Origin: Terricaulis silvestris
GTDB lineage: Bacteria > Pseudomonadota > Alphaproteobacteria > Caulobacterales > Aquidulcibacteraceae
Assembly: GCF_009792355.1 (NCBI RefSeq)
Contig: NZ_CP047045.1
Span: 3,188,501 to 3,252,500, forward strand
Length of the DNA stretch: 64,000 nt
Direction of reading: 5' to 3'
Of the stretch, positions 8,434 to 51,578 are shown piece after piece. The notes beneath the pieces are model-generated. The model was not told the DNA's origin, made no database searches, and worked only from the letters and a program-made list of their open reading frames with translations. How positions within the stretch are numbered: the first letter of the stretch is position 1; each line of letters begins with the position of its first letter. The translations under genes were made by a program, and so were the position numbers.

Positions 8434-9912
8434 CTAGGCCTTTTGCGGTTCGTCGTCGATTGCGACCGCGTTGGCCGCCATCGCGTCAATCGCCGGCGCG
8501 CCCGCGCCGGTGTCGGGCGCTTCTTCGACATGCGCCGGCCCCATCCGCGATTTACGCCATCCGCCCCAGCGATAATACGCAACGGAGAGCAGCATCGACG
8601 TCATCATGCTGACCGCGAAGCTCCACCAGATCGCATCTGCGCCCCAGTAGGGCTGCAGCAACACCGCAAAACTTATGCGCACAACGAAAAGCGAGAACGC
8701 CATGATCAGTAATGGCGGCGTCACGGCGCCCGTCGCGCGCACGACGCCGAACAGCACGAACATCACGCCGAACCCGACATAGGCCCAGGCCCCGATATTG
8801 TTGATGTGCTCAGCCAGCGCGATGGCTTCCGGATTGCCCGGCAGGAACAGCTGCACCAAGTAAGGATCGACAATGTAGAGCACCACGATCAGCGCCCCCG
8901 TCAGCGCAACATTGACGCCGACTCCGGAGCGCGCCGTCGCGTCCACTCGGTCCCAGCGCTTGGCGCCCACGTTCTGCGCAGCGAACGACGACACCCCCAT
9001 CCCGATCGCCATCGCCGGCATCTGCAGATAAGTCCACAACTGCATCGCGACGGCGTAAGCGGCCGCCGTTTGCGCGCCATAGCTATTGATCATCGCCATC
9101 ATCACGACGGCCGAAATCGAAACGACGAGCATCTGCGCACCCATCGGCAAACCCTTGACCACCAGCGTCTTCATGATCGCCGGATCGGGCTTCAGAAAGT
9201 GCCACTCGCCGCGGTAAAGCACGATCTCCGACTTGCGCCAGTAGAGATACGCCACCATCACCACCATCGAGATCGCTTGCGACAGCAAAGTCGCCATCGC
9301 GGCGCCGGCAATGCCCATCTCCGGCAGCGGCCCGACGCCAAGGATCAGCAGCGGGTTGAACGCAATGTCGAGCCCGACAGCCAGGATCGAAAACCGGAAC
9401 GGCGTCTTCGCATCGCCCGCGCCGCGCTGGATCATGATCAGCAGCGCCGAGACGAACATGAACGGCAGCGACAAGAAGATCACCCGCAGATACGTCACCG
9501 CCAGCGGCGTCACTTCCGGCGGCGTTTGCATCAGCCGCAGGATCGGCTCGCTCAAAGTGTAGCCGGCGATCGCCGTGACCGCGGAGAGGATGATGAAAAA
9601 CGTCATCGCCGTGCCGACGATGCGCTTCACCTCGTCCGGTTTCTTCGCGCCCACCGCCTGGCCAACCAGGATCGTCGCCGCCATGCCGACGCCGAACACC
9701 GCGCCCAGCATGAAGATCAGAATGAGCGTCGCGTTGGCCGTCGCCGTCAGCGCCTGCTCGCCCAACAGCCGCCCGACCCAGATCGCATTCACCGACCCGT
9801 TCAGCGACTGCAACACACTGGTGCCAAGCACCGGCAGCGAGAACATAACGAGCGTGCGGGTAATCGGTCCCTGTGTGAGATCGACGTGGCGAAGTTTCGG
9901 AGTGCTGGCCAT
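8434..9912 (-). CDS. MATE-family multidrug/Na+ (H+) antiporter
   Basis: A 492-residue inner-membrane exporter with about twelve helices in two homologous halves. The N-terminal segment TQGPITRTLVMFSLPVLGTS and the loop GQAVGAKKPDEVKRIV are typical of MATE proteins, which expel cationic drugs or metabolites using a Na+ or H+ gradient. The second half repeats the pattern (AAQNVGAKRWDRVDATARSG). The C-terminal ~45 residues are a hydrophilic tail with acidic and Ala-rich sequence. It lies 46 bases upstream of the SDR on the same strand and may share its transcript. No clear Shine-Dalgarno precedes the ATG at 9912. Confidence 0.9.
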   Translation of the reverse strand: MASTPKLRHVDLTQGPITRTLVMFSLPVLGTSVLQSLNGSVNAIWVGRLLGEQALTATANATLILIFMLGAVFGVGMAATILVGQAVGAKKPDEVKRIVGTAMTFFIILSAVTAIAGYTLSEPILRLMQTPPEVTPLAVTYLRVIFLSLPFMFVSALLIMIQRGAGDAKTPFRFSILAVGLDIAFNPLLILGVGPLPEMGIAGAAMATLLSQAISMVVMVAYLYWRKSEIVLYRGEWHFLKPDPAIMKTLVVKGLPMGAQMLVVSISAVVMMAMINSYGAQTAAAYAVAMQLWTYLQMPAMAIGMGVSSFAAQNVGAKRWDRVDATARSGVGVNVALTGALIVVLYIVDPYLVQLFLPGNPEAIALAEHINNIGAWAYVGFGVMFVLFGVVRATGAVTPPLLIMAFSLFVVRISFAVLLQPYWGADAIWWSFAVSMMTSMLLSVAYYRWGGWRKSRMGPAHVEEAPDTGAGAPAIDAMAANAVAIDDEPQKA

Positions 9913-27963: not shown

Positions 27964-29982
27964 ATGCCTGACGCCCCCCAAACCCGCAGGCTCGCCGCGA
28001 TCCTCTCCGCCGACATCGCCGGATACTCGGCCCTCTCGGAGCGGGACGCGGCGCTAGCCATTGCGCATGTCGCGCGCTTGCGCGAACGCGCACGCGCCGC
28101 GTGCGAGCGGCACGGCGGCCGCATCTTCAACACCGCCGGCGACGGCGTGATGCTCGAATTCGCAAGCGCCACCGATGCACTCGGCGCCGCCTTCCAGCTT
28201 TGCGACGCCAGCCAAGACGCCAAGCTCCGCATCGGCGTGCACTTGGGCGAAGTGACGCCGGCGGAGAACAACGATCTACTCGGACACGGCGTCAACGTCG
28301 CCGCGCGGTTGCAAGCCGAGGCGATCGCTGGCGGCGTTATCGTTTCGCAGATCGTCTACGAAAGTGTAGCGCCTGAACTCGCCTCCAAGCTCACCGCGCG
28401 CGGCCGCGTGCGTCTGCTCAAGATGCGCGAGACCATGCGCGTCTACGGCTTCGACCCCACCGGCGCCACGCGCGCGCCGGTTTCCGCGACACCCGTCATC
28501 GCCGTGCTCGCCTTCGACACGCCATCGCGCGAACATTCCACCCGCGCCTTCTCCGATGGCCTCTCCGAGGAAATCCTCTACGCCGTCTCGCGCCTGCAAG
28601 GTCTCCGCGTGCTCGGCGCCACATCGAGTTTCGCCTTCCGTGGCCGCGACAAAACCAAAGCGGCCAAAGCCCTGAACGCCACCCACGTGCTCGACGGCTC
28701 CGTGCGACGCACCGAAGATCGCGTCCGCGTCTCCGCGCACCTCGCCGAAGCCGAAACCGGCATCGTGCTCTGGTCTGACCGTTACGACCGCCCGCTCGAC
28801 GACGCGTTCCAGCTGCAAGAGGACATCGCGACTGAAGTCGCCAAAGCGCTCACTGTCGCCCTCGGCGAAGCCCGCCGCGCGCGCGCGCCCAAGCTTACTG
28901 CGGCGCTCTCCGACGCCTACTTCGAAGCTCGCGAAAAAATGCGCACCGGCGCAGTCGCACAGATGCAGTCCGCCGCTACCGCGCTAGAACGCATCGTCCG
29001 CGAAGCGCCTGACTTCGCCCGCGCCTGGGCTGGCCTCGCCACCGCCAAGCTCGAAATCCTGCGCCTCTCCCGCGCCGACCGCGCGCGTCTGGTCGAAGAC
29101 GCACGCGAAGCGGCCGAGCGCGCCCTCGGCGCCGATCCCAGCATCGGCGAAGCCTACGCCGTGCTCGCGGCACTCGAAGGCGAGTTCTTCGGCCGCTGGC
29201 GCGAACGCGAAGCGCTGATTGAAAAAGCGCTCGCGGTCGATCCCAACAATCCGCTGCTGCTCTTCCGCCACGGTCAATTCCTGGTCTCCACCGGCCGCGT
29301 CGGCGCGGGCTACGCCCAGCAAGCCGCCGCGTTCGAACTCGATCCGCTCGATCCGATGTTCGGGGCGTTTCACGGTTACAATGTCTGGTCCAGACGAGAC
29401 AAAGCCGAAGGCCGCCGCATCCTCGACGAAGCCGCGCAGCGTTACCCGGACTCGCCCTTCGTGTGGTTCATGCGGCTGAACACCGCGGCCCTCGACGGCG
29501 ATTTCGCCACCGCTGAAACACTCCGGCCCGAAGGCGCGCGGCTCGTGCCCGGTCTGAAAGATTCCGCCGCCTACAAAGCCGGCGAGCGCATGCAGCAGCT
29601 GATGATGGCGCCCTCGCCTGACGCCTTCATGCAGCTCGGCGTCGATTTTGCCGCCATGGCTGAAGCCGAACCCGCCGCAGCCCTTGATCTTGGCGTTGCA
29701 CTCTCCGTGCTCGGCTTCACCGGCCCCGCGCTGCAACTCTTCGGTGACGCGCTCGACAATGTCGACGCCTGGCGCGCCGGCGCACTCGAAACCGCGCGCC
29801 CGCACATCGGCTACGAAACCGCGCTGCTGTTCATTGGCGAAACCATTCAGCTCCGCATGAACCCAGACTTCGCCGCGCTGTGCGTGCGTTTGGGACTAGC
29901 GCGCTACTGGCGCGAGACGGATCAGTGGCCCGATTGCGCGAGCGAACTGCCCTACGATTTCAAAGCGGCGTGTTCGGGCTAG
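27964..29982 (+). CDS. Class III nucleotide-cyclase domain protein with TolB-like domain and TPR repeats
   Basis: A 672-residue cytoplasmic protein. Residues ~10-170 are a class III cyclase domain: SADIAGYSAL (metal Asp17), FNTAGDGVMLEF (metal Asp60) and GHGVNVAARLQAEA with the transition-state Asn/Arg. The purine-specifying Lys before AGD is Asn56, so activity or base choice may be altered. Residues ~175-300 form a TolB/FlgO-like domain (VIAVLAFDTPS, FSDGLSEEILYAVSRLQGL), and ~310-672 are TPR repeats. This architecture is common in alphaproteobacteria. Starts at GTG 27904 and ATG 27943 are also possible; 27964 fits family N-termini best, though no strong ribosome site is seen. The 232-base gap upstream shows no other gene. 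Confidence 0.82.
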   Translation: MPDAPQTRRLAAILSADIAGYSALSERDAALAIAHVARLRERARAACERHGGRIFNTAGDGVMLEFASATDALGAAFQLCDASQDAKLRIGVHLGEVTPAENNDLLGHGVNVAARLQAEAIAGGVIVSQIVYESVAPELASKLTARGRVRLLKMRETMRVYGFDPTGATRAPVSATPVIAVLAFDTPSREHSTRAFSDGLSEEILYAVSRLQGLRVLGATSSFAFRGRDKTKAAKALNATHVLDGSVRRTEDRVRVSAHLAEAETGIVLWSDRYDRPLDDAFQLQEDIATEVAKALTVALGEARRARAPKLTAALSDAYFEAREKMRTGAVAQMQSAATALERIVREAPDFARAWAGLATAKLEILRLSRADRARLVEDAREAAERALGADPSIGEAYAVLAALEGEFFGRWREREALIEKALAVDPNNPLLLFRHGQFLVSTGRVGAGYAQQAAAFELDPLDPMFGAFHGYNVWSRRDKAEGRRILDEAAQRYPDSPFVWFMRLNTAALDGDFATAETLRPEGARLVPGLKDSAAYKAGERMQQLMMAPSPDAFMQLGVDFAAMAEAEPAAALDLGVALSVLGFTGPALQLFGDALDNVDAWRAGALETARPHIGYETALLFIGETIQLRMNPDFAALCVRLGLARYWRETDQWPDCASELPYDFKAACSG

Positions 29983-48305: not shown

Positions 48306-49793
48306 ATGAACGCCACCCCCTTCGCCGCCGTCGCCGCACACGCCCAGCGCTTGAAGCAGAAGACGCTGCTGGAGCTGTTCGCGGCGGACGCGAACCGCGC
48401 CGAAGCGCTCACCTTCGAGGCGCCGCACCTGATTGCGGATTTTTCCAAGCAGCGCATCGATGCGGAGGCGCTGGCGAGCATTGGTGCGCTAGCGGAGGCG
48501 ATGCAGTTCGACGATTGGCGCGCGAGGATGTTCGCGGGCGAGATCGTCAACACCACCGAAGGCCGCGCGGCCAAGCATTGGGCGTTGCGCATTCAGGATC
48601 CGCCGGGCGGCGACAACGAGATCACCGCCGTGCTCGATCGCATGCACAATTTCGGACACGAGATCGCTGAGAGCGGAGACTTCGACGCTATCATTCATCT
48701 TGGCATCGGTGGTTCCGACTTGGGGCCGCGCGTAGTGCTCGACGCGCTGAAGGCGCACCGGCGCCCGAACCTACAAGTCCGCTTCGCAGCGAACGTGGAT
48801 GGCGCCGATGTGGCGGACGCGATCGAAGGGCTCGATCCGAAACGCACGCTGCTGATCGTCGTCTCCAAGACTTTCACCACACAGGAAACGCTGGCCAACG
48901 CCGCGTTCGTCCGCGCCTGGGGTCCAGCGCGCATCGCCGCCGCGACCGCCACGCCGGATAAGGCCGTGGAATGGGGCATGGCGGAAGAGGACGTGTTCCC
49001 GTTCTGGGATTGGGTCGGCGGCCGTTATTCGCTGTGGTCGAGCGTGTCGCTGGTCTGCGAGATCGCGCTGGCGCACGGGGCGTTCTTCAAGATGCTCGAA
49101 GGCGCCGAGGCGATGGATGAGCATTTCCGCGATACGCCGTTCGCGCAGAACCTGCCGGCAATCTCAGCCGCGGTGCAGATGTGGAATCGCGAAGCACTGG
49201 GCCACGGCTCCTACGCGGTGATCCCCTATTCCGAACGCCTGCGCTTGCTGCCCGCTTACCTGCAGCAGCTCGAGATGGAGTCGAACGGCAAGCGCGTGAC
49301 ACGTGATGGCCAAGCCATCGAGCGCTCAGCTTGCGCGGTCACCTGGGGTGCCGCCGGCACCAACGCCCAGCACTCGTTCTTCCAATTGCTGCACCAGGGC
49401 GTGGAGGAAATTCCGGTCGAGTTCATCATCAACGCCGGGGCGCACGAAGGCCCGCAATCCCACCGCGCCAAGGTGTTCGCAAACGCACTGGCGCAAGCGC
49501 GCGCGCTGATGGTGGGCAAGCAAGGCGTCGAACCGCACCGCACGTTCCCCGGCAACCGGGCATCCACGCTGATGGCGATCGATGCGCTCTCACCCGAAGC
49601 TTTGGGCGCGCTGTTGGCGTTCTACGAACACCGCACCTTCGCGCAGGCTGTGCTCGCGGGCGTCAATCCGTTCGACCAGTTCGGCGTGGAACTGGGCAAG
49701 GAAATGGCCAATCAGCTCTTGCCCGCGCTCGAAGGCGGACAAAAGCTGGATACGGACCCCAGCACCGCTGCGTGGCTGAAACGTCTAGGCTAG
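48306..49793 (+). CDS. pgi: Glucose-6-phosphate isomerase
   Basis: A 495-residue enzyme that interconverts glucose-6-phosphate and fructose-6-phosphate. HLGIGGSDLGPRV and VVSKTFTTQETLANA are the phosphate-binding signatures. The C-terminal PROSITE-like motif is seen as NPFDQFGVELGKEMA. Catalytic Glu and His are in the PGI-typical regions (GGRYSLWSSVS and GAHEGPQSHR). It feeds fructose-6-phosphate to GlmS. Its last four bases overlap the convergent small gene at 49790. Confidence 0.96.
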   Translation: MNATPFAAVAAHAQRLKQKTLLELFAADANRAEALTFEAPHLIADFSKQRIDAEALASIGALAEAMQFDDWRARMFAGEIVNTTEGRAAKHWALRIQDPPGGDNEITAVLDRMHNFGHEIAESGDFDAIIHLGIGGSDLGPRVVLDALKAHRRPNLQVRFAANVDGADVADAIEGLDPKRTLLIVVSKTFTTQETLANAAFVRAWGPARIAAATATPDKAVEWGMAEEDVFPFWDWVGGRYSLWSSVSLVCEIALAHGAFFKMLEGAEAMDEHFRDTPFAQNLPAISAAVQMWNREALGHGSYAVIPYSERLRLLPAYLQQLEMESNGKRVTRDGQAIERSACAVTWGAAGTNAQHSFFQLLHQGVEEIPVEFIINAGAHEGPQSHRAKVFANALAQARALMVGKQGVEPHRTFPGNRASTLMAIDALSPEALGALLAFYEHRTFAQAVLAGVNPFDQFGVELGKEMANQLLPALEGGQKLDTDPSTAAWLKRLG

Positions 49794-49972
49794 GTCTCGG
49801 CCGCGGGCGCTTCGCCCCGGCCGCGTCCCGCCAGACGCTGCAGCACCCGCTCGGCGACGACCAGATCCTGGTCTTCCGCTTCCATCTCGGCGCGCATCTT
49901 CTCGAGCGCCGACAGTTCATTCTGAACCGCCATGCGCCGAGCGATCACTGCTTCAAGGTCAGGTTTGCTCAT
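49790..49972 (-). CDS. 60-residue helical protein, paralogue of the next gene
   Basis: A short, mainly helical protein starting MSKPDLEAVIARRMAVQNE. It shares a pattern with the gene at 50087: the opening SxDLxAVxARR, a middle LxALxxxxAExE, and VVxERVLxRL at the end (here DLVVAERVLQRL). The start at 49972 follows the family alignment with that neighbour; a longer frame reaches 50065 without support. Coiled-coil character suggests self-association. The stop overlaps pgi by four bases. Function is unknown. Confidence 0.7.
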   Translation of the reverse strand: MSKPDLEAVIARRMAVQNELSALEKMRAEMEAEDQDLVVAERVLQRLAGRGRGEAPAAET

Positions 49973-50086
49973 GGCGGCAAAGATATCCACAGCGGGCGCG
50001 CGGCCAATCGCACGCGCGTGCGAGGTGAACGGCGCGTACGAAAACACGCCCACCAGCGTATGCAACGCGGCGGCGCCGGACTGTGA

Positions 50087-50341
50087 TTAGCTGTTTCGTC
50101 TCGCCAGGAGCGTTTTAATGGCGCTGACCGTACGCTGCCCGAGCGGCTCGTTGGCGTACTCCTCCGCGTATTCCGCCGGCTCTTCCGGCATCAGCCGCTC
50201 CAGCCGGTGCAGCACGCGCTCGGTGACGGCGAGCTCTTCCAGCTCGGCCCGCAGCGCCGCCACCTTGGCGTCGTAGCCATCGACGAAGCTTACAATCTCG
50301 GCCCGGCGGGCCGCCACGGCGCTCAGATCAGACGTGCTCAT
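50087..50341 (-). CDS. 84-residue coiled-coil protein, tandem paralogue of 49790-49972
   Basis: Begins MSTSDLSAVAARRAEIVSF and has LRAELEELAVTERVLHRL, the same motif order as the neighbour. It has an extra ~25-residue tail (YAEEYANEPLGQRTVSAIKTL) that resembles a small helix-turn-helix or binding helix. The two arose by duplication and then diverged. It is upstream of the shorter copy on the same strand with a 114-base gap. No function is known. Confidence 0.7.
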   Translation of the reverse strand: MSTSDLSAVAARRAEIVSFVDGYDAKVAALRAELEELAVTERVLHRLERLMPEEPAEYAEEYANEPLGQRTVSAIKTLLARRNS

Positions 50342-50428: not shown

Positions 50429-50842
50429 CTAGCGCGGGCCGTTAAACAAGCCGACCAGATCGACCAGCACGCCGAAGCCCCAGGTGCGGTCGAACAGGAC
50501 AATCAGCCCCGTCATCGCGGCCGCCCAAAGAATGCTCGCGAGCGAGCCGATCAGGAAGTACTCGGCGTTGTTCTGGTCATCGAGCTTGGCGTAGCGCGCG
50601 ACAGTCTTGAGCGCGATCACGGCGGCGAGGATCTCCCAGCTGCTGGCGATCAGGCCTAAAAACACCAAGAGCCGTTCCAGAATGCCGATGGTCCGGCCCG
50701 CTCGCAGCGAAACCTTTTCGCCCGTTTCCGGCGGAGTCTTGGTCGCGCTCATTTTCAGGACGAGCTTGCAGAACTCATTGCCGCCGACGGTCAGAAAAAC
50801 CAACAGCACGGCGTAGGCCAAAACCAGAAGCGAGGCGATCAT
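50429..50842 (-). CDS. Membrane protein partner of SatD
   Basis: A 137-residue protein with about three hydrophobic helices (LLVLAYAVLLVFLTVGG, LLVFLGLIASSWEILAAVIAL, and SLASILWAAAMTGLIVLF). A basic loop (MSATKTPPETGEKVSLRAGR) separates the first two. It starts with ATG 50842, which overlaps the SatD stop by four bases (ATGA), so the pair is translationally coupled. No known family was recognised. SatD genes are often next to small membrane proteins; this one shows no cyclic-nucleotide-binding domain. Confidence 0.7.
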   Translation of the reverse strand: MIASLLVLAYAVLLVFLTVGGNEFCKLVLKMSATKTPPETGEKVSLRAGRTIGILERLLVFLGLIASSWEILAAVIALKTVARYAKLDDQNNAEYFLIGSLASILWAAAMTGLIVLFDRTWGFGVLVDLVGLFNGPR

Positions 50843-51501
50843 TTGAGCCCGTATTGTTGATCCAATGCAGCAATCGTATCCTCAATGACGGCCGACTGAC
50901 GCGCATGAAAGTCCGCCCGCGCGGCACGGAGCACTTTGTAGAGGCCGCGTTCGGAAATGCCCAGCGAAGCCGCAACTTTGGCGTTGGTGCGCTCACCGCG
51001 GCTGGCGACATAATAATTGAGCTGCGTCTCTGTCCAAGCTGCTTCGTTTTGGGTCAGGCTATCCCCCACAGCATCGAGCAGCGCCCCGATCAGATCGTCG
51101 CCGGGCAGCGAAAAGCGGTAGGCGTTATCAACATCCTTTTGGTTCAGCCGCGCGCGCGCGTCGGCAAGGCCCGGTCCCATCATGTTCCAGGCGCGCGTGG
51201 TGTTCACCGGGGTTTCGACCTTGACCGCGCCAATCACAAAACGGCAGCGCACGCCGCCCTGCAGCAACTTGAGCCGCAGCGCCAAGGCAACTTCCAGGGC
51301 TGCCGACAGCGTGCGGACCAAGCCCTGAAATTCGTCGCCCAGCGTGATCGTAAGCGGCGAGACGATCGCCGCCGCGTGCTTGCGATTTGCGCCAGCGACC
51401 GCGCTATTGAAGACTTGATGCATCCGCCTGACAGACGGCGCGGCTTCGCTGCCGACGATATCGCCCATAAGGACAACTAAAGAAGCGCTTTTTGCGGACA
51501 T
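50839..51501 (-). CDS. SatD family protein with C-terminal helix-turn-helix
   Basis: A 220-residue protein of the SatD family. LMGDIVGSE (Asp14) and LTITLGDEFQGL (Asp56, Glu57) followed by RCRFVIGAVKVET resemble the metal-Asp and core strands of class III cyclase-like palm folds; this is an inference from motif order. Residues ~172-198 (TNAKVAASLGISERGLYKVLR) form a helix-turn-helix. The promoter region carries two matched palindromes, so autoregulation is likely. It heads an operon with the membrane protein at 50429. Role unknown; originally named in Streptococcus. Confidence 0.8.
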   Translation of the reverse strand: MSAKSASLVVLMGDIVGSEAAPSVRRMHQVFNSAVAGANRKHAAAIVSPLTITLGDEFQGLVRTLSAALEVALALRLKLLQGGVRCRFVIGAVKVETPVNTTRAWNMMGPGLADARARLNQKDVDNAYRFSLPGDDLIGALLDAVGDSLTQNEAAWTETQLNYYVASRGERTNAKVAASLGISERGLYKVLRAARADFHARQSAVIEDTIAALDQQYGLK

Positions 51502-51527
51502 GACCCAATTCCGGTACAGGTTTGCCT

Positions 51528-51556
51528 ATATGAACCTAAATTGGTTCATATTTCAA
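51528..51556 (-). promoter_or_regulatory. Predicted satD promoter spanning palindrome 1
   Basis: On the minus strand, TTGAAA (51556-51551) is followed by exactly 17 bases and then TCATAT (51533-51528), a good sigma70-like pair. The spacer is largely filled by the palindrome at 51529-51550. A protein on that site would block RNA polymerase. Confidence 0.65.
51529..51550. promoter_or_regulatory. Operator palindrome 1: TATGAACC-N6-GGTTCATA
   Basis: Perfect 8-bp arms, TATGAACC (51529-51536) and GGTTCATA (51543-51550), with a TAAATT spacer. It is one of two related sites 30 bp apart, centre to centre, in the satD upstream region. Confidence 0.8.
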
Positions 51557-51560
51557 TACC

Positions 51561-51578
51561 TGAACCTTTTTTGGTTCA
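51561..51578. promoter_or_regulatory. Operator palindrome 2: TGAACC-N6-GGTTCA, over the glmM stop
   Basis: Perfect 6-bp arms, TGAACC (51561-51566) and GGTTCA (51573-51578), with a T6 spacer; it is the same motif as operator 1 with shorter arms. It includes the glmM stop codon (51576-51578). The pair is about three helical turns apart, suiting cooperative binding. Confidence 0.75.

Follow-up and report, generated by a model that had tools for sequence, protein, structure and literature searches.

A SatD-family protein with a cyclase-like palm domain and a helix-turn-helix, its small membrane partner, and a three-dyad array ahead of the satD gene

The sequence analyzed here (the window) is a stretch of 64,000 nucleotides from the 3.86-Mb single-contig genome of Terricaulis silvestris. 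On its reverse strand lies a gene of the SatD family, which takes its name from the sat operon of Streptococcus mutans, and the 3' end of this gene overlaps a gene for a small membrane protein (the partner). The features of the locus are as follows.

50839-51501, reverse strand: satD, 220 amino acid residues, with a cyclase-homology domain and a C-terminal helix-turn-helix (HTH)
50429-50842, reverse strand: partner membrane protein, 137 amino acid residues, all-helical model, ATGA-coupled to satD
51109-51486, reverse strand: class III nucleotidyl-cyclase-like palm domain of SatD, about residues 6-131
51460-51462 and 51334-51336, reverse strand: D14 and D56 of SatD, predicted metal-type aspartates
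50854-51030, reverse strand: C-terminal HTH region of SatD, residues 158-216 (AlphaFold)
50923-50952, reverse strand: recognition helix of SatD, residues 184-193
51561-51578: O1, distal operator, exact TGAACC-N6-GGTTCA; its final three bases form the stop codon of glmM
51531-51548: O2, middle operator, exact TGAACC-N6-GGTTCA; its arms reach 9 bp (51528-51551)
51501-51518: O3, proximal operator, TGACCC-N6-GGTACA, each half-site one base off; overlaps the satD start codon
51528-51556, reverse strand: putative promoter TTGAAA-17-TCATAT, weak; its spacer is filled by O2

The first-pass annotation of this DNA had proposed translational coupling of the two genes, an HTH at the C terminus of SatD, and twin TGAACC-N6-GGTTCA dyads, one of which covers the glmM stop codon. 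All of these were found: the reading frames overlap by ATGA (50839-50842), the AlphaFold model has helices at residues 158-167, 173-179, 184-193, and 196-216, and the dyads lie at O1 and O2. The third dyad, O3, which follows at the same exact 30-bp pitch, had been missed. When up to two mismatches were allowed, the dyad pattern matched the window seven times against 1.3 expected, and none of 100 shuffles reached seven. The promoter proposed at the same time is present as TTGAAA and TCATAT with a 17-bp spacer, but it fell below the threshold of a consensus scan, which found no promoters; the match is weak, and this counts against the explanation that we favor below.

The window SatD matched the SatD family model (PF16264) over residues 9-128 with an E-value of 5.7e-12 (46.2 bits, gathering cut-off 29). 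Its AlphaFold2 model had a pLDDT of 96.8 and a pTM of 0.92, and residues 1-156 take the class III cyclase fold according to the model and Foldseek. The 50 Foldseek matches listed, of 930 at E<=10, were all adenylyl, guanylyl, or uridylate cyclases, and in the VIA structure comparison Cas10 tied with the class III enzymes. The earlier suggestion of a nucleotide cyclase palm in the N-terminal domain, made from motif order, agrees with all three analyses. D14 and D56, 42 residues apart, were invariant in 73 of 73 aligned relatives, and the block TITLGDEFQ did not vary in any of them. When the cyclase motifs were mapped by eye, without a structural alignment, the position of the transition-state Asn fell on a nearly invariant Leu (L112) and that of the AC purine-binding Lys on an Ile (I52); R116 may be the transition-state Arg. 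Direct sequence links were negative and stand alongside the fold result. A profile-profile comparison of SatD with class III cyclases gave a probability of 1.3, and the best match in a profile search of the PDB had an E-value of 0.18, both of which count against our favored explanation; a phmmer search of the PDB gave a single match at E 1.1.

A more distant group of proteins offers an indirect sequence link. In a search with the partner profile, three genomes (1 of 150 and 2 of 289) that gave no match to SatD were found to carry the partner domain C-terminal to a DUF3307 domain. Immediately next to each fusion gene, on its upstream side, lies a gene whose product has the motifs GDI[IV]KSS and RGDGWQ and an HTH-like C terminus, with no Pfam family over the cut-off. 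The three gene pairs are as follows.

L126, 232-1911: divergent HTH-bearing cyclase-like gene and DUF3307-partner fusion
L129, 1498-2941: divergent HTH-bearing cyclase-like gene and DUF3307-partner fusion
L130, 355-1758: divergent HTH-bearing cyclase-like gene and DUF3307-partner fusion

The alignment of these three divergent cyclase-like sequences (A4) matched SatD over 191 columns with a probability of 98.1 (E 1e-13) and class III cyclases with a probability of 67.8 (E 4.9e-5). In the PDB, its profile matched Ma1120, an adenylyl cyclase, at E 0.0023; the best-scoring chain (E 0.00033) was unrelated and aligned with the HTH part. These relatives thus appear to bridge the sequence gap from SatD to the class III cyclases, and through the two alignments (SatD with A4, and A4 with the cyclases) D14 and D56 fall on the cyclase Asp residues, so that they are predicted to be metal-type aspartates and to bind metal. 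DUF3307 itself matched in 12 of the 289 genomes of the class, and a motif rule applied to flanks of roughly 1.5 kb found such an HTH-bearing, cyclase-like neighbor beside only two long DUF3307 proteins; at L140-L142 the rule caught neither gene. The fusion of the membrane domain to DUF3307 beside another HTH-bearing cyclase-like protein indicates that the association extends beyond SatD.

The AlphaFold2 model of the partner (pLDDT 88.8) is all-helical, with three long helices and a short helix at residues 69-84, and contains no strands and no soluble nucleotide-binding domain. Among 58 aligned rows, G53, E56, R57, K79, G99, and S103 were invariant; E56 and R57 lie within the second long helix, and K79 lies in the short helix between the second and third. 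Pfam gave no family over the cut-off for the window partner and, for the 58 members, scattered weak matches, each in one or two of the 58; a PDB search with the partner gave no chain at E<=1e-3. From the model, the partner may be a membrane effector or a channel-like element.

To describe the distribution of the module, we kept the best 80 of at least 501 relatives from a scan of a genome collection, a sample that leans to close kin. Contigs L006, L007, and L008 are the same as L013, L054, and L063 and were counted once. A partner homolog adjoins satD in 79 of the 79 testable loci among these 80 relatives, as well as in the window. A motif rule detected it in 73 of the 81 loci (window included) and tblastn in seven of the remaining eight; L039 was untestable, as its contig ends inside satD, and the partner of L031 is cut by the contig end. 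In the testable loci the two genes mostly overlap or lie a few bases apart, and the overlap is 4 bp in 34 of the 73 detected by the motif rule. At L038, L044, L045, and L120, the satD frame extends beyond its usual end across the partner start, so that the overlap looks longer. Apart from the partner, we found no recurrent neighbors beyond what looks like clade-level synteny. Loci with both genes span Alpha-, Beta-, and Gammaproteobacteria, Bacteroidota, Acidobacteria, Armatimonadota, and a Desulfocarbo. The family had been called widespread at first reading, a description that has to be qualified. Its occurrence is patchy: satD was found in 4 of 150 genomes (the window genome included) by protein search, and by the Pfam model the window genome itself was the single one with satD among the 289 sampled from the class.

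Among 72,556 plasmid records, five carried satD, and among 50,697 phage records, none did. In viral contigs, 26 pattern matches were obtained, none of which was a relative. BFVD gave two matches at E<=1e-3; the better one comes from an uncultured phage and has a guanylate cyclase domain, which indicates general kinship of fold. On the Agrobacterium pAt plasmid (L120), the partner is present in an overlapping frame at about 8690-9110, where only a 91-residue hypothetical protein is annotated, and a 28-bp three-dyad array lies ahead of satD. This satD region is near genes for a (p)ppGpp synthetase, HipA, AbiEii, and NTase/HEPN proteins; the satD of a Sphingomonas plasmid has no neighbors of the HipA, AbiEii, or NTase-HEPN type. 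We also considered known defense systems. With PADLOC, the best SatD match was to the CARF3 model (1 of 73, 1.9e-4), and mad1 matched 3 of 73 (best 0.017); for the partner, two PDC-M18B models matched 3 of 58 (best 0.0015) and 1 of 58 (0.0011). Neither set of matches was convincing, and the A4 pairs gave no PADLOC match up to E 0.1.

We then examined the region ahead of satD with a score that does not depend on the letters of the half-sites: three dyads (six half-sites, spacer of 6 or 7) were scored at every period from 20 to 40 bp within 210 bp around the satD start. The best dyad period was 28-30 bp in 78 of 81 loci, compared with 13 of 81 in averaged shuffles; the exceptions were two loci at 20 bp and one at 26 bp. 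A non-redundant set was drawn from the rows of the SatD alignment A1 only, with SatD identity below 70%, and comprised 60 loci. In this set, the 28-30 bp three-dyad array precedes satD in 57 loci, whereas control windows of real DNA taken from these loci gave 18 of 120; likewise, 57 of the 60 exceed the 95th percentile of the controls for the array score. Several satD loci have degenerate arrays. The half-site word is specific to the clade. The window shares TGAACC with Roseibium and Brevundimonas, whereas many sphingomonads and rhodobacters have TGACCC, Phenylobacterium and Bordetella have TATCCC or TAGCCC, and Bacteroidota have ATTTCA, ATTGCA, or ATTGTA. Thus, the expectation that the palindrome would recur upstream of other satD genes held for the array, but TGAACC itself is kept in only part of the set. 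In 12 of 19 Bacteroidota loci, TAnnTTTG, which we take to be the -7 promoter element of this phylum, lies inside a dyad, whereas 200 mononucleotide shuffles, which do not preserve dyads, averaged 0.6 and never exceeded 4. Close relatives within Flavobacterium make up six of the 12. This supports, without proving, an overlap of the Bacteroidota operators with the promoter. Two observations on the array count against the explanation favored below. The array was sought at the three A4 loci and was not found there, and a pitch of 28-30 bp is about 2.7-2.9 helical turns, not a whole number, which would place the sites off one face of the DNA.

Matches elsewhere in the genome were sought in the window genome and four others. 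In the whole window genome, exact TGAACC-N6-GGTTCA occurs only at O1 and O2, and there are four one-mismatch matches elsewhere, compared with three for a reversed-pattern control. The four other genomes were searched with the single pattern TANCCC-N6-GGGNTA. The Phenylobacterium genome has two sites, both at satD (control 1), and the Bordetella genome has four, two of them at satD (control 2); the other two genomes have different operator words, so that their 1 and 0 matches (controls 3 and 1) are no test. Exact operators are thus confined to their own locus in the window genome, and elsewhere in the two informative genomes matches are little above background. As exact operators are essentially restricted to their own locus, SatD probably has no regulon, and its output would pass through the partner or through its own chemistry.

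To find a candidate binder of the array, we compared the columns of the SatD alignment with the positions of the half-site in 41 proteobacterial loci with an operator score of at least 42, out of 53 A1 rows; the rest have weak arrays or none. Among 179 SatD columns, the top rank went to R185 at half-site positions 2 and 3, to L191 at position 4, where R185 came third, and to K189 at position 5. All three residues belong to the modeled recognition helix (184-193). At positions 1 and 6, the highest-ranking columns (V84 and L73) lie outside the helix. When Bacteroidota were included (52 loci), K189 was still first for position 5 and Y188 was first for positions 1 and 4, but most of the top columns were off the helix (N32, F88, W105, and others). 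Top columns outside the helix are what a clade signal would give. In 33 non-redundant proteobacterial loci, the combinations of residue 185 and half-site base 4 were R with A in 13, R with C in one, another residue with A in one, and another residue with C in 18 (Fisher p 3e-7, with no correction for kinship). On a tree from which the HTH had been left out, the two traits each changed five times and gave two independent pairs on well-supported branches; on average, 1.3 of these pairs differed in the same direction, 0.0 in the opposite direction, and 0.7 showed no difference. With two such pairs, this test did not establish that the covariation is independent of kinship; the covariation is suggestive rather than conclusive, and this limit, like the top columns off the helix, counts against the explanation favored below. 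Since the half-site varies with R185, K189, and L191, SatD probably binds its own operator in Proteobacteria.

Among the papers listed for SatD, DUF3307, and the sat operon in the literature within reach, which excludes most subscription journals, we found none that links SatD to a cyclase fold or to a defined operator. In the accessible portions of these reports, SatD is called a protein of acid tolerance or acid resistance, a DNA-binding protein, or the product of an essential accessory gene (acid-resistance or DNA-binding in PMC10326533 and PMC12005413), and those portions do not describe its fold, operator array, or partner. The part of PMC5786311 available to us gives lower satD expression with lysozyme. 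According to the available text of PMC11323703, satD of S. pyogenes, a distant homolog, is essential in all strains and conditions of the compared transposon studies, yet is present in only 178 of 249 genomes. A gene both essential and accessory would be expected if SatD restrains a harmful partner.

As observed in sequence and model, SatD carries a ligand-type domain and an HTH in one chain, with a dyad array at its own promoter. Together with the partner, it forms a self-contained two-gene module, in which SatD would be a one-component regulator whose cyclase-fold domain senses or converts a nucleotide. We consider it moderately probable that SatD dimers on the three dyads act as a repressor, that their occupancy depends on a ligand or product of nucleotide type at the cyclase-like domain, and that the partner is the output. 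The dimers would sit 28-30 bp apart over the promoter and start codon of their own operon and most likely repress it. When the nucleotide that the cyclase-like domain binds or makes changes, SatD would come off the DNA and the membrane protein would be turned on. The partner, small and helical with conserved charged residues in its helices, would be the effector. The sequence and model analyses show the module, the fold, the invariant aspartates, the operator architecture, and the covariation; DNA binding, dimerization, repression, the nucleotide ligand, and the effector role are inferred.

Several known proteins and systems resemble this module. Mycobacterial cyclase-ATPase-LuxR HTH proteins, such as Rv0386, are large and multidomain; like SatD, they join a cyclase-homology domain and an HTH in a single chain, whereas SatD has about 220 residues, is paired with a membrane protein, and has an operator array at the promoter of its own gene. 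Class III cyclases (Rv1900c, Ma1120, sGC, and PycC) have a palm fold and two metal-type Asp residues, as SatD does, and its Asp spacing of 42 is close to the 44 residues in two PycC enzymes (D102/D146 and D62/D106), as far as the accessible descriptions of those enzymes go. Pycsar (PycC and PycTM) likewise combines a class III-type fold with a membrane protein, but the SatD partner model has no soluble cyclic-nucleotide-binding domain, and SatD has an HTH. We did not assign the partner to the Pycsar effectors: the model of this 137-residue protein is all-helical and lacks that domain, and the window protein has no Pfam family over the cut-off. Panoptes (OptS mCpol and OptE 2TM-beta) is also a two-gene operon, in which a small protein with a palm fold is paired with a small membrane protein, and in the available parts of PMC12657230 and PMC12657218 the product of the palm-fold enzyme keeps the membrane effector silent. 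OptE has a beta-barrel nucleotide domain (PMC12657218, available part), whereas the SatD partner model has none, and SatD differs further in bearing an HTH. Filing the module as Panoptes was rejected, since the all-helical partner model lacks the nucleotide-binding domain of the 2TM-beta effector. Panoptes may be the nearest in logic, an analogy that we leave open.

The same evidence can be read in other ways. SatD might be catalytically active, as a nucleotide cyclase or polymerase of class III type, with a product that activates or inhibits the partner much as in Pycsar or Panoptes; the HTH would then set expression only. The class III fold, the invariance of D14, D56, and TITLGDEFQ in all 73 relatives, the Asp spacing near that of the two PycC enzymes in the text available, and the obligate small membrane partner would all fit; the all-helical partner without a soluble nucleotide-binding domain, unlike OptE as described in the accessible text, and the by-eye placement of L112 and I52 at the Asn and purine-binding Lys positions fit poorly, and we hold this reading to be doubtful. 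We are equally hesitant about a toxin-antitoxin-like arrangement, in which SatD would be an antitoxin-type autorepressor of a membrane toxin and its cyclase-like domain a degenerate binding scaffold. Its patchy occurrence, the five plasmid records, the HipA, AbiEii, and NTase/HEPN genes near the Agrobacterium plasmid copy, the array at its own promoter, and the essential-but-accessory status in S. pyogenes (PMC11323703, available text) point in this direction, but TITLGDEFQ is under more constraint (73 of 73) than a scaffold needs, the Sphingomonas plasmid lacks such neighbors, PADLOC gave no convincing match, and the phage records contained no satD. Both of these readings overlap with the explanation that we favor, so that the weights given here do not sum to one.

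It seems unlikely that the membrane protein is instead a sensor, tethering or releasing SatD according to the state of the membrane while SatD regulates the operon only. The strict pairing and overlap of the two genes, the invariant charged residues E56, R57, and K79 of the partner, and the mostly local exact operators would suit such a sensor, but one that controls just its own synthesis has no output, and the invariant cyclase-like block would be left unexplained.

A further reading is tentative, and we rate it slightly below the cyclase and toxin-antitoxin readings: a nucleotide bound or made by SatD would keep the effector operon silent, and loss of the pool, for example under stress or phage attack, would open the three-site array and unleash the membrane protein. 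If true, this would be a new kind of nucleotide signaling, with a cyclase-fold domain wired to a DNA-binding domain and one dedicated membrane effector, and a transcriptional counterpart of Panoptes-type inhibitory signaling in several bacterial phyla. 

More generally, SatD would show in compact form how a domain of the class III cyclase type can provide the input to a dedicated autoregulator. The family has been little more than a name; with its fold, operator code, and obligate partner described, its function can be tested directly. Across phyla the three dyads keep a near-constant pitch of 28-30 bp while the letters change with the recognition helix, a natural experiment in the coevolution of regulator and operator.

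Some further features of the window were noted. A terminator-like hairpin lies at 50450-50468 (reverse strand), within the 3' end of the partner gene, and may be due to chance; the region has three such hairpins, compared with 2.0 in shuffles. Downstream of the module are two small tandem open reading frames of 91 and 84 amino acid residues (49790-50065 and 50087-50341, reverse strand), which look alike in sequence and have no Pfam match. The same window also contains a class III cyclase domain (PF00211) at 27994-28446 on the forward strand (E 1.1e-7), and the window genome has six PF00211 matches.
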